A stretch of 49,949 nt of DNA from Fimbriimonadaceae bacterium (lineage in GTDB: Bacteria > Armatimonadota > Fimbriimonadia > Fimbriimonadales > Fimbriimonadaceae), in contig JAHBTC010000004.1 in the NCBI GenBank assembly GCA_019638835.1, positions 1 through 49,949 on the forward strand, given 5' to 3'. Made by a program: the position numbers and the translations under genes. Each line of letters opens with the position of its first letter. Positions within the stretch are counted from its first letter, which is position 1. The notes below the pieces were generated by a model. It had not been told where the DNA came from and ran no database searches. It worked only from the letters and a program-made list of their open reading frames with translations. Below, in pieces: positions 38,054-43,222 of this stretch.

Positions 38054-38059
38054 ATTCTA
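38054..38059 (-). promoter_or_regulatory. TAGAAT box before the GT4 gene
   Basis: TAGAAT followed by seven bases and the ATG at 38046. The TAG is also the stop codon of the preceding gene, so the match is less independent than the others. Confidence 0.4.
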
Positions 38060-38812
38060 TCTTGTGCGGAAGCAACCACCCACTAACTTTCGACAATCCG
38101 CGAGAGCGGAAGTGGGCAACGTAGTCCTTCTTGAGCGGGCGACCAGAGCTTGCACTGCGACATCGCTTCCGAACTCGTCGGAGAACCATCGCGCGGCCTC
38201 AGATTTTGAGACCATGCGATTTGTACTAAGGTAACAAGCGCCGCGAGCAAGAGTAAGAACCGCATAAGCACCCGAGGGATCATGTCCGGGTCGAAAGGCG
38301 TTTCTGTACGCCCACCTCATCTCCCGCTTTACTTCGTGGGATAGCCACTCTTGATCAGGTTCATTGATAAGTGATCGCGGGGGAGCGCCAGAAACGGAGA
38401 ATCCCACCTGCCGACAAGCCTCTAAGTCAAGAATCCCCGCGTTGTAGCGACCGTTCGCGCGAATCCTCTCCGGAAAAACAGAGCCCGTGTCCATCGCCAT
38501 CACATAGGGAAGCGGCCGCGGGAGTTGGCGCAATGTGGATTGTCGATAAGCAAGGAGTTCCAGTCCGATCGCCGGGCATGGGAGTGTGTGATGACTCAGG
38601 AGTTTCAACCAGAGATTCGGTTCGGGAAGTCGCTTTCCATCGGGGATCATCGCGATGATATCGATATCGCTTGATCTGGGTTCGAACGCACCAAATGCGA
38701 GTGACCCCGAGACCATGACGGATCTACATCCGAGTCCTTCAAGTCGGACACTGACGTCCAACAGGTAGCGACGCACCTCTGGAGTGCACCGATGCCACGG
38801 AGTGGAGCTCAC
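38057..38812 (-). CDS. Nucleotidyltransferase-domain protein (AadA-like layout)
   Basis: A 251-residue protein. Residues 25-60 hold the Pol-beta-type nucleotidyltransferase signature: GCRSVMVSGSLAFGAFEPRS then SDIDIIAMI, with the GS...G...DxD metal and nucleotide residues. The C-terminal helical part (QEWLSHEVKREMRWAYRNAF, AYAVLTLARGACYLSTNRM, SKSEAARWF) follows the DUF4111 layout of aminoglycoside 3''-adenylyltransferases. Sequence similarity to real resistance enzymes looks low, so a modification of another small molecule or tRNA is also possible. The GTG start is 14 bases after the era stop, in the same operon. Confidence 0.75.
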   Translation of the reverse strand: MSSTPWHRCTPEVRRYLLDVSVRLEGLGCRSVMVSGSLAFGAFEPRSSDIDIIAMIPDGKRLPEPNLWLKLLSHHTLPCPAIGLELLAYRQSTLRQLPRPLPYVMAMDTGSVFPERIRANGRYNAGILDLEACRQVGFSVSGAPPRSLINEPDQEWLSHEVKREMRWAYRNAFRPGHDPSGAYAVLTLARGACYLSTNRMVSKSEAARWFSDEFGSDVAVQALVARSRRTTLPTSALADCRKLVGGCFRTR

Positions 38813-38826
38813 TCCATTATTGTGGA

Positions 38827-39735
38827 TTACTTCGTGTAATCAAGTTCTTGCAAAGTTCGGTCACTTTGCCGCCAATCCGATTTGACTTTGACGAAAAGAT
38901 TGAGATACACGTGGCAACCAATCATCTCTTCAATCTCCTTTCGGGCATCTGTTCCAATCGCTTTGAGCATCACACCCCTGCGTCCGATGAGGATGGCTTT
39001 TTGACCCTCGGTTTCGCAAAGCAAGACAACGCTGATCGTAGTTGTCCCTTCGGCCTCTTCCCAGTTCTCGCAATACGTAGCAAGGGCATGAGGTACTTCT
39101 TGGCGGAGTCGCTTTAGGGCTTGCTCTCGCACCAACTCGGAGGCGAGGTCGCGCATGGGTTGGTCGGTATAGAGTTCGTCGTCGAACAACGGCGCCTGCT
39201 CGGGCAGATGCTTGACGATCATTGCCTCCAGTTCCGCCAAGTTGTCGCCCCGAGTCATCGAAGTCATGATCACTTCTTGGGGCTGGAATAGATCTGTGAA
39301 TTCCTTGTATCTTGCTTCCACATCGGCTGGGGCAAGCATGTCCATCTTGTTCATCACGAGGATGAGCGGCGTGGAGCGCTTCGCATCTCCAAGTTTTGCA
39401 CCTTCGAGCATCGCGGAGATACGGCGATCTTCCTCGCGGGGGTCTTGCGAAACGTTGACGACGACGAGAAGCGCATCCGCGTCATCCAATGTGCTACGGG
39501 CCGAATCGTTCAGCGCGCGACCTAGTTTGGTCGAGGGCGTGTGGATGCCAGGCGTATCCAGAAACGCAATCTGATATCCCGGCTTCGTCAGGATCCCCAA
39601 TGCTCGGCGCCGTGTGGTCTGCGCCTTGTCGCTGACGATGCTGACCTTGTTCCCCACCAAGGTATTGACCATCGTGCTCTTGCCGACATTGGGTCGCCCC
39701 AAAACGGCAACGATGCCTGCGTGATATTCGCCCAT
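38827..39735 (-). CDS. era: GTPase Era
   Basis: A 302-residue essential GTPase that binds the 3' end of 16S rRNA and helps 30S assembly. G domain: G1 GRPNVGKS (13-20), switch region VSIVSDKAQTTRRRALGIL, G3 DTPGIHTPSTKLG, G4 NKMD. The C-terminal KH domain has the loop AILIGRRGVMLKAIGTDARK and KVKSDWRQSD. The start ATG is one base after the stop of the upstream GH42-like gene with TTAGG at the junction, so the two are translated from one message. This junction is strange given that the upstream protein looks like a glycosidase. Confidence 0.96.
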   Translation of the reverse strand: MGEYHAGIVAVLGRPNVGKSTMVNTLVGNKVSIVSDKAQTTRRRALGILTKPGYQIAFLDTPGIHTPSTKLGRALNDSARSTLDDADALLVVVNVSQDPREEDRRISAMLEGAKLGDAKRSTPLILVMNKMDMLAPADVEARYKEFTDLFQPQEVIMTSMTRGDNLAELEAMIVKHLPEQAPLFDDELYTDQPMRDLASELVREQALKRLRQEVPHALATYCENWEEAEGTTTISVVLLCETEGQKAILIGRRGVMLKAIGTDARKEIEEMIGCHVYLNLFVKVKSDWRQSDRTLQELDYTK

Positions 39736-39736
39736 C

Positions 39737-42700
39737 CTAATCGCGTTTACGGAATACAACATTGATACTGTCGTCATTCGCAGACACTCTCTCTACACCT
39801 TCCGTTCGGCGGTCGGTTCCTTCCTCCCCACCTCGGCGTCGAGTTTTGCGTCGTCGCTTTCTTCCTGGCCGTTGCTCTTCGGACTGGATCGTAGCTTCTT
39901 CTTGACGTCGTTCGATGTCTAGAAGTGAAGGTTTAAGGAGTAAATCTTCTGCTAAATCGTCGCTCCAACTAGACTCGACCCACTCGCCGAGTTGCATGAT
40001 AGGCACATCCAGTTGTAGGGCATCCCAATGCATTTGGTCGTCGTGGGGACGTTCGATTTCCGGGACGTCCAAAGCCTTAATCGGGTCGGTTCCCAGTAAC
40101 GCATCAATTGAGCCTCTTGTGCCAACAAGGAAAGAGTAGGTGGCACCGGCGAGAGCGTTGAACCGAAGTGACTTGTTGTCCATCGCCATCCACTCTCCGT
40201 TGATCAGGTCGTAAGCGCACCAGTTGTCGGGTAGGGCAAGTGTTCGTGGCCCAGCGGTCTTCGTGTGAATGGTGAGGAACGGGGGTCGCACAGTAAGGAC
40301 ATCGTCATCAAAGGACCAGATGTGGCAACCAGCGATCCGTCCTAATTCGCGGAACAGGGCCGGAGTTACGATGGGTTCACCGAGGAAGACGCTGGTCCAA
40401 TGTTCTTGAGGATTCGGATCCTGATCGAAGGGGCAAACGACGAAGCTAGGCAATCCCGTCTGGCTGTACTCGCCGAGCACCGTACCGACTTCAGGGATCG
40501 CGAAGTAGCTGGGAGCGAGCATCCCACCTTGAGCAAGTTCTCGTTCCGGTAATGCGTTCGACAGAGGGTCTCTCGAGTTCAGCAGCGTTGTTCCCGACTT
40601 GCTCGCAAACGGTTGAGGCCGAAGAGCAATTCCCGTTACTTCACGGGCACGCTCAAGGCTTTCACGTCCCCCTTCAAACAGGGCCGCAACGTAGAGCCAA
40701 AACAGCACTTTGCCGTCCCTTTGCAATCTTGTCTTGACCGCGCTTCGAACTTCGGGGCGCATATCCCAAGCATTGACGAACACATACAATTTGCTTTCCG
40801 GGAATGACTCTCGGTGAGCGAGATCGCTCAACAGATAAGTTCCGACGCTTAGGCCCGACCGGACGAGTGACTGCCGAACGTCTTTGACAAGGGCATTGAA
40901 TGCGTCCCGATCTACCAGGTAGGCAAGCGATCTCTCATCAATGAGGAGAGCAACGTCCGGTGCCGTTTGCGGTGCGGCAAGCCGCATTGTCATGCCACGA
41001 CGAACTTCTTGTGCTCGCTCCCAAATCCCTCGGCTATTGAGCCAGCCGTTGCCCCACGTATCCATCCAGACGGTGCCTGTGCCGTGAGCCAATGCGCCAC
41101 CCGCCCCGCGCCAATGGACGCTCTCCAGAGCCTGCGGAGTCTTCATTACCGGATTGTAGGTGTCCGGTTCATTTCGACCCGAAATAGGAGTTTTGTAGTC
41201 CTCTTCCGATATCGCGAGTTTGTTGTTGAGCGAGAAACTGTCAACCGGGCCGGGGAATGCGGCCGCCGCGCCGGGTTCGCGACTGGCATAACTCGGCGGG
41301 CCAGCGATGTAGTCAAGGTCAGGTGACCGAAGTAGCTTTCCGAGCGACAAGTGACCACTTGCGGGGTGAGACCACTCAAAAGTGTATCCGTAGCTAGCAC
41401 CGACGAGGAAAGTGCCTTCACTGGCGACCTTCGTGGCATTAGCCAACTTGTTGATGCGCTCGGCAATTGCATCGCTCAAGAAGAGGTGGTAATCCACCCA
41501 ACGTCGCGATTTGCGATCCGTGCGTACAAATGATTCGCCCTCGCGATTCGAGACTTGATCCTCGGGAATCGCGACGGTATCAAACTGCACTTGTCCGTCA
41601 AACCACGATGCGCGCAGACTCACGACGTCATTGCGGTAGCGAGCGCGGAGCCAGCCTCGGAACTTTTCGTGCGCTGCTACCGAGGAGTCATATCCAACCT
41701 CTTCACTATGGAACCATTCCCCTCGTTCCAGGTGGATGCCAACAATTCGGTCGGCTTGAGGCAATAAGCGCACTCGTCGGACAAATCGGACGAGGCACTC
41801 TTCCGCCACGCTCCAGTACGCATCATCGCAAAAGCTGGGCTCACTGACCACTCCGTCAAGGGGAACGAAGACGGCATTCGGATACTGCTTCTGCCAGTTT
41901 TCCGGCGCAACAAACGCTGTGCGGAAAATCATCCGCATCTGCGGGGCAACTTCCTCTACCTTTTGGGCCAGATAGGCGGCAAATCCGACCGCGTCGTCAT
42001 TTACGTCGTGATTGACCTCCAACTCAACAAAGAGGGAAACGACTTCGACACCGTGTTCGGACGCCAATCGGATCTCTTCAAGCACTGTCTCCAAGCGGGA
42101 CTCATCAAGTGCGGAAGCGAAGAAGAAAAGCGGCACGAGGGCCTTGTGACCGATTGATATGCGTGAGATTCCGTCTTGCACCACGATTTGGGGAGCATCA
42201 GGAGGAATCACGACGGCTTCGCGAGTCACAACGGGGGGCAATGGTTTGGGAAGTTCTTCACGCTTGGCTCGCCGGGTGACGCGTGGCAAGTCGTCGGCTG
42301 CAGACTCCATGTCGGGAGCCTCTTGTGTCCGCGATCGTCGACCGCGACGTTCTGACTTTTCCTGAACGGACTCGATTTCCGACTTTTCTGGCTCAACGAA
42401 AGCGTCGGCCGCGGTAACTCGACTCTCAAGGTTGTCACCTCGACGTCGGCGTCCTCGTCGCCGACGGGTTACGCTTTCGGAATCGGTGTCCTTGTCGTCA
42501 TCGGCAACTTGGGGTCGGGGGGACGCAGAAACGGCTCGCCATGTGGGAATCGGCAAGGCAGCCTCACCATCCCGTAATTCGATACTCAGAACGAAGTCTT
42601 CGCGGACTTCACCCAACGGTGGAAGCTCGGCTTCTAAAGCTACTGTCGGTTCTTGTTCTCGGTCTCGTCTTTTTGCTCGGCGCGGCGATCGCTCAGGCTT

Positions 42701-43222
42701 GGGCAACTCTTTCGGTTCCAGGACTGGCTCAGTCTTTGGTTCAGACTTCGTTGCTTTGCTGGATCTTCGAGAACGAGGCGTCGCCTTCTCCTTTTCTGGT
42801 TCAGCAGCCGCGACAACTTCTTCAGCTTGAGCCGCACGTTTCGTTCGGGTGGACTTCGGCTTGGTAGCCGCTTCTTCAGGACCCGAGGTTGAAACGGTCT
42901 TCTTCGTTCGAGGCGACTTCGGTTTTGATTCAGTTGTCGTCTCCTTGATCTTTGCAGACGCAGACTTAGTCCGTGTCTTCTTCACGATCGGAGTTGCAGG
43001 TTCTTCAACAACAGGCTCAGCCTTTTTCACGGTCTTTGCCGTTTGTTTAGCCTTCGATGCTGGCTTAGCTTCGCTCAACTTTGGTTCCGCCTTTGCCGAT
43101 ACCTTTTTGGAGGTGGGAGTCTCGAGTGCGCTTGACTTCTTTGTGACGCGTCGGCGGGACGGAGTGGTGGAGGTCGTTACTTCTTCGGCGGGCGATACTT
43201 CGTCCTGTTTTTTTCGTGCCAT
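39737..43222 (-). CDS. GH42-like TIM-barrel protein with long basic disordered tails
   Basis: A 1161-residue protein without signal peptide. Residues 1-345 are low-complexity Lys/Ala/Glu/Pro/Thr sequence like histone H1 tails (TPTSKKVSAKAEPKLSEAK), with Arg-rich knots VTRRRRGRRRRG and ERRGRRSRT. From about 350 to 1090 it resembles GH42/GH-A beta-galactosidases: ALVPLFFFASALDESRLET, HLERGEWFHSEE, HEKFRGWLRARYRNDVV, SLNNKLAISEEDYKT, VWMDTWGNGWLNSRGIW, and then a Rossmann-like part (LLIDERSLAYLVDR). The C-terminus is basic again (RPGRKRRRKTRRRG). The tails suggest RNA or DNA binding. It abuts era with one base between. Enzyme activity and substrate are not shown. Confidence 0.8.
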   Translation of the reverse strand: MARKKQDEVSPAEEVTTSTTPSRRRVTKKSSALETPTSKKVSAKAEPKLSEAKPASKAKQTAKTVKKAEPVVEEPATPIVKKTRTKSASAKIKETTTESKPKSPRTKKTVSTSGPEEAATKPKSTRTKRAAQAEEVVAAAEPEKEKATPRSRRSSKATKSEPKTEPVLEPKELPKPERSPRRAKRRDREQEPTVALEAELPPLGEVREDFVLSIELRDGEAALPIPTWRAVSASPRPQVADDDKDTDSESVTRRRRGRRRRGDNLESRVTAADAFVEPEKSEIESVQEKSERRGRRSRTQEAPDMESAADDLPRVTRRAKREELPKPLPPVVTREAVVIPPDAPQIVVQDGISRISIGHKALVPLFFFASALDESRLETVLEEIRLASEHGVEVVSLFVELEVNHDVNDDAVGFAAYLAQKVEEVAPQMRMIFRTAFVAPENWQKQYPNAVFVPLDGVVSEPSFCDDAYWSVAEECLVRFVRRVRLLPQADRIVGIHLERGEWFHSEEVGYDSSVAAHEKFRGWLRARYRNDVVSLRASWFDGQVQFDTVAIPEDQVSNREGESFVRTDRKSRRWVDYHLFLSDAIAERINKLANATKVASEGTFLVGASYGYTFEWSHPASGHLSLGKLLRSPDLDYIAGPPSYASREPGAAAAFPGPVDSFSLNNKLAISEEDYKTPISGRNEPDTYNPVMKTPQALESVHWRGAGGALAHGTGTVWMDTWGNGWLNSRGIWERAQEVRRGMTMRLAAPQTAPDVALLIDERSLAYLVDRDAFNALVKDVRQSLVRSGLSVGTYLLSDLAHRESFPESKLYVFVNAWDMRPEVRSAVKTRLQRDGKVLFWLYVAALFEGGRESLERAREVTGIALRPQPFASKSGTTLLNSRDPLSNALPERELAQGGMLAPSYFAIPEVGTVLGEYSQTGLPSFVVCPFDQDPNPQEHWTSVFLGEPIVTPALFRELGRIAGCHIWSFDDDVLTVRPPFLTIHTKTAGPRTLALPDNWCAYDLINGEWMAMDNKSLRFNALAGATYSFLVGTRGSIDALLGTDPIKALDVPEIERPHDDQMHWDALQLDVPIMQLGEWVESSWSDDLAEDLLLKPSLLDIERRQEEATIQSEEQRPGRKRRRKTRRRGGEEGTDRRTEGVERVSANDDSINVVFRKRD

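Follow-up and report, generated by a model that had tools for sequence, protein, structure and literature searches.

GH42 enzymes, for example the Thermus A4 beta-galactosidase (1kwg), have middle and C-terminal domains that mediate trimer formation. The Klotho-type pseudoglycosidases belong to a different family, GH1, and are animal proteins that serve as extracellular co-receptors. The term pseudoglycosidase is applied to proteins of this type in PMC12665127 and PMC10628560. In RNase E, the C-terminal scaffold is disordered and Arg-rich and contains short linear motifs (PMC11964227, PMC4435900).

The gene described here is located in a 49,949 bp stretch of DNA (the window) and predicts a protein that resembles each of these in part. 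It shares the barrel and downstream domains with GH42 beta-galactosidases at ∼17% identity, but has a family-specific GEWF motif instead of the GH42 acid/base NE motif and, unlike those enzymes, carries long charged tails, lacks an export signal, and is a single copy protein that is near-universal in its class and has lost its catalytic candidates in several lineages. The likeness to Klotho-type proteins would lie in a glycosidase fold that has lost catalytic residues yet is retained for its binding function, though those are GH1, animal and extracellular, with no relation in family or context. RNase E likewise combines a folded enzyme core with a disordered Arg-rich tail that includes a short conserved motif, but no sequence relation between the two was found.

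Core and tails of the predicted protein

The gene occupies 39737..43222 on the minus strand, with an ATG at 43222 and a TAG stop at 39739-39737, and forms one uninterrupted frame of 1161 codons predicting a 1161 aa protein, to which its own genome contains a single match. Residues 345-735, approximately (41018..42190, minus strand), are predicted to form a GH42-like TIM barrel from hhalign matches to GH42 and low-confidence fold matches, and residues 736-1045, approximately (40088..41017, minus strand), correspond to the middle and C-terminal domains of GH42 within the same full-length hhalign match. The match between the tailed family and 17 genuine GH42 proteins extends over 586 columns covering the barrel and the following domains (prob 97.2, E 4.6e-11), and a set of untailed paralogues provides a bridge to GH42 (hhalign E 9.4e-16). 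This supports the GH42/clan GH-A barrel with a second domain that had been proposed in a first-pass annotation of the window and, judged by these alignments, homology to GH42 beta-galactosidases extends through the whole core.

Matches of single sequences to Pfam PF02449 reach E≤0.1 in 28/39 members, the best being 1.5e-6, and the window protein (E=0.0046, 16.8 bits) is below the 21-bit cut-off, which is exceeded by the one paralogue checked (G125). AlphaFold models made from five sequences, those of the window and four relatives, had a pLDDT of 38.7 over 712 residues and a mean pLDDT of 44.6 for the barrel alone. The best PDB matches of the latter are GH35/GH42/GH5 enzymes (VIA Z about 11-13), and a model this poor would back the fold but not its details. 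Searches of Pfam and NCBIfam predicted no RNA-binding domain at a significant score in the tailed protein.

The N-terminal tail (42191..43222, minus strand; residues 1-344) is of low complexity and mixed charge, with 23% K+R, 17% D+E and 41% A+P+S+T and a net charge of +20. An earlier description of it as histone-H1-like is correct only in part, as the charge is mixed and Arg-rich knots are present. The C-terminal tail (39740..39967, minus strand; residues 1086-1161) contains RKRRRKTRRRGG and ends in NVVFRKRD, and the final 45 residues have a net charge of +8 and are 29% Arg. The long N-tail and basic C-terminus seen initially in the window recur across families. Where the N-terminus of a class member is complete, its N-tail measures about 110-450 aa and its C-tail about 40-85 aa, both being rich in K/R, D/E and A/P/S/T, and every full-length orthologue of the tailed family examined carries low-complexity charged tails. 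The tail sequence is not conserved, but the length and charge type of the N-tail recur in relatives.

The extreme C-terminus is [F/W]R in 100/100 class members that have a C-terminus, with an FRKR-like ending in all 77 members of family f1. In the tailed outgroup (n=26), a run of at least 4 Arg is found near the C-terminus in 20/26 and RRRRGG in 16/26. FRKR[DE] was considered as a tag common to several proteins and rejected, as it precedes a true stop only once in the window genome, in the tailed gene. Seven of 10 RNase E/G proteins of this phylum were readable (L155, L156, L158, L160, L162, L163 and L164), and these are apparently without a long C-terminal disordered tail, giving no support to the same tail being present on RNase E/G of these bacteria. 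In one Armatimonadota RNase E/G the tail is polar and short, at about 30 aa.

Joining of two genes through a frameshift or misassembly, or a chance low-complexity coding run, could produce an open reading frame of this kind, and both the low complexity of the N-tail and the weak family match of the single sequence would be in keeping with such an artefact. However, the window copy has no internal stop, and the architecture is identical in all full-length orthologues, including those from single-contig genomes. Because the architecture is conserved across orthologues, the artefact reading was rejected and its probability is considered negligible; the frameshift or misassembly joining two genes, which the first-pass annotation had named as potential evidence against it, is ruled out. 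The gene is real, and the observation of a tailed GH42-like protein is confirmed.

Distribution and untailed paralogues

The tailed protein was detected with a whole-protein query in 107/113 genomes of the class, almost always as one match, and in 87/88 of those of good quality. This class is probably Fimbriimonadia, in the Armatimonadota, and the Armatimonadota genome CP021424 is a named relative. A profile (A1) built from an alignment of 39 tailed sequences was used to search beyond the class, and found strong orthologues (∼550-840 bits) in families f8, f12, f17, f26, f28 and f37 of the same phylum. A second set elsewhere in the phylum scored lower (∼350-450 bits) and has a different anatomy, that of the untailed paralogues. 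No relative was found in the viral contigs searched, and literature searches found no description of the protein. It appears to be an undescribed protein that is near-universal and single copy in the class, itself a little-studied one.

The untailed GH42-like paralogues, from other Armatimonadota, are mostly 720-930 aa and lack the charged tails, but share the core and the positions of two conserved glutamates, E502 and E673, with the tailed protein. Several have signal-peptide-like hydrophobic N-termini. In the window protein, the highest 17-residue Kyte-Doolittle mean within the first 70 aa is -0.68, with no export signal, and among 66 tailed members examined no hydrophobic N-terminus exceeds the threshold used, which upholds the earlier report that an export signal is missing. 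The tailed protein is predicted to be cytoplasmic. In contrast, 6/14 of the untailed set exceed the threshold and several more are near it, suggesting that this set is a separate and largely exported-looking group. Distant homologues that have neither the tails nor era linkage, of the kind named in the first-pass annotation as potential evidence against its interpretation, do exist, but they belong to this separate paralogue group and all full-length orthologues examined are tailed.

Candidate catalytic glutamates and their loss

E502 (codon 41717..41719, minus strand) is the candidate acid/base, in the GEWF motif after strand 4, and E673 (codon 41204..41206, minus strand) is the candidate nucleophile, in the SEED motif after strand 7. 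These are the two glutamates singled out in the first-pass annotation. Profile alignments to GH42 are shifted and gapped in these strand-4 and strand-7 regions and the structure models are of too low quality to overlay the active sites, so that the two residues are a putative catalytic pair. Both positions are Glu in 26/26 of the tailed outgroup and 14/14 paralogue sequences, and both are kept in all members of f2-f5 that could be scored and in 84/99 scored members altogether, including the window copy. Losses were found in f1, where one or both are replaced in 15/77 genomes (E502 in 13, E673 in 11, both in 9), with Leu, Met or Asp in place of E673. Trees were constructed with FastTree and residue changes counted by Fitch parsimony. 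Counting either residue, E502 alone and E673 alone, the Era tree requires 8, 7 and 5 changes and the protein tree 5, 4 and 3, respectively. Most degenerate members cluster on the protein tree, perhaps due to long branches, and genus g19 holds both intact and degenerate states.

The degenerate proteins are otherwise well preserved. Ten strongly degenerate members retain 87 of the 100 columns that are ≥97% conserved elsewhere, and 12 of the 13 lost columns, which include E502, F504, H579, W617, H619, H624, E673 and M720, are within the barrel (Fisher p 0.014). E674, D675 and D721 are still present in almost every degenerate member, and the terminal motif and era linkage are retained as well. Close pairs that lack both glutamates have a dN of 0.014-0.17 and a pS of 0.62-0.80, indicating strong purifying selection in the absence of both residues, and dN/dS-type ratios are not quoted as synonymous sites are near saturation. 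The dN values revealed no difference in constraint between the barrel and later domains that was specific to degenerate pairs. Provided that E502 and E673 form the catalytic pair, the degenerate f1 lineages would be pseudoenzymes. The first-pass suggestion that the protein had lost its enzyme role is likely for several relatives, but not for the window copy, which keeps both residues.

A HAD phosphatase gene resembling ppaX is the same-strand upstream neighbour in 20 relatives from f1 (part), f2, f4 and f8. It lies directly upstream at L071:4329-5090, at L107:4895-5719 and in 18 other relatives, and its product is closest to PpaX/phosphoglycolate phosphatase, below cut-offs. In the window, the upstream slot is held by divergent flagellar genes.

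It is possible, though in our view somewhat doubtful, that the protein is an active cytoplasmic glycosidase for which the tails serve only in localisation or concentration, and that lineages without E502/E673 now rely on different catalytic residues or act on a different substrate. The GH42 homology is full-length, both glutamates and the surrounding residue shell are kept in most members, including all that were scored in f2, f3, f4 and f5, the outgroup and the paralogues, and the HAD phosphatase suggests a metabolic setting. However, glutamate loss is repeated and often joint and takes otherwise conserved neighbouring residues with it, with the remainder of the protein under strong purifying selection, and catalysis leaves the motif at the extreme C-terminus unexplained.

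Linkage to era and predicted role

The downstream gene, era (38827..39735, minus strand), encodes GTPase Era, identified with NCBIfam NF000908 at 326 bits, where the cut-off is 237. The TAG of the tailed gene ends at 39737 and the era ATG is at 39735, and the junction sequence thus bears out the one-base gap noted earlier. As the next gene on the same strand, era is found in 76/77 f1, 1/1 f3 and 6/7 f5 genomes, the seventh being at a contig end, and in 67/69 f1 cases measured its start codon is -23 to +6 bases from the tailed-gene stop. The linkage is absent from f2 (0/15) and f4 (0/1), no era was found near the tailed gene in the outgroup loci examined, and neighbours in other classes are inconsistent. 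The era linkage that the first-pass annotation sought in related genomes is therefore tight in f1, f3 and f5 but does not extend to f2, f4 or other classes.

Three genomes from other Armatimonadota families (G133, G146 and G169; loci L249-L251) keep the tailed protein but have no match over the Era cut-off, and one of them is a single contig with 99% completeness. From these searches, era appears to be lost or strongly diverged in the three, indicating that Era is not an obligate partner. The gene ybeY was considered as an alternative era neighbour and rejected, as the two are far apart on one contig in G001 and G041 and on different contigs elsewhere. In the window, the ORF after era (38057-38812, minus strand) matches PF13427, an aminoglycoside adenylyltransferase C-terminal domain (27 bits, cut-off 22.2), shows no more than a trace of a nucleotidyltransferase domain, and is far under all resistance-gene cut-offs.

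Era binds the anti-Shine-Dalgarno part of 16S rRNA, and the products of genes known to adjoin era frequently act on the 30S subunit (PMC10582724). A protein dedicated to Era in 30S assembly, as its partner or regulator, with tails that bind rRNA and synthesis coupled to that of Era, would agree with this and with the era starts that mostly overlap or abut the tailed-gene stop in the linked families. We nevertheless regard such a role as quite improbable, given the families and outgroup loci that lack the linkage, the orthologues in the three genomes without a recognisable Era, and the metabolic genes that also adjoin era with unclear meaning (PMC10582724). The coupling is real and old within f1, f3 and f5 but not required for the tailed protein, and Era is unlikely to be an obligate partner. 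The anti-Shine-Dalgarno region is shifted left (UCACCUCCU) in Fimbriimonadia, with a table value of 25% (PMC10783764), and any link between this shift and the tailed protein is speculation.

The explanation that we favour, at roughly even chances, is that this is a GH42-derived cytoplasmic protein in which catalysis is dispensable and the conserved role is binding or scaffolding rather than hydrolysis. The protein is missing from a single good genome, and yet its likely catalytic centre has decayed in several lineages, which argues for a non-catalytic job in the degenerate ones. As intact and degenerate members do not differ in their tails, C-terminal motif or gene order, the simplest interpretation is one binding or scaffold role common to all, with catalysis optional, and the lasting job is probably not sugar cutting. 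The folded core, comprising the barrel and the GH42 middle and C-terminal domains, would form a rigid and predicted oligomeric hub with a scaffold role, and partners would be held by the charged N-tail and by the Arg-rich C-tail with its terminal [F/W]-R-[K/R] peptide. On account of the Arg-rich clusters and, in three families, of co-translation with Era, RNA or ribosome surfaces would be the likeliest targets, though to name either as the ligand is a guess from tail composition. In most lineages the intact sugar site may still bind a glycan or cleave it slowly, and in several it would be gone.

Several observations count against this binding or scaffold role. Pfam and NCBIfam searches recognise no RNA-binding domain, and era is missing beside the gene in f2, f4 and other classes and not recognisable at all in three outgroup genomes. 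Retention of the glutamates and their surrounding shell in 84/99 members argues that sugar binding or catalysis is still selected there, the persistence of E674, D675 and D721 could support a remodelled active site, and the HAD phosphatase conserved upstream in 20 relatives points to metabolism. A stronger form, in which the whole class relies on a GH42-derived hub that is made with Era, binds ribosomes or RNA through its tails and has repeatedly had its sugar site turned to pure binding, is unlikely.

If this stronger form is true, the protein would be a ribosome or RNA factor derived from a sugar enzyme. Active sites in the family grade naturally from intact to degenerate, which makes the role of a glycosidase fold without catalysis directly testable. 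Should the ribosome prove to be the partner, an assembly factor of unexpected origin would be added; if it is not, a linkage to era that is tight yet clade-limited would be a caution against predicting function from gene order.
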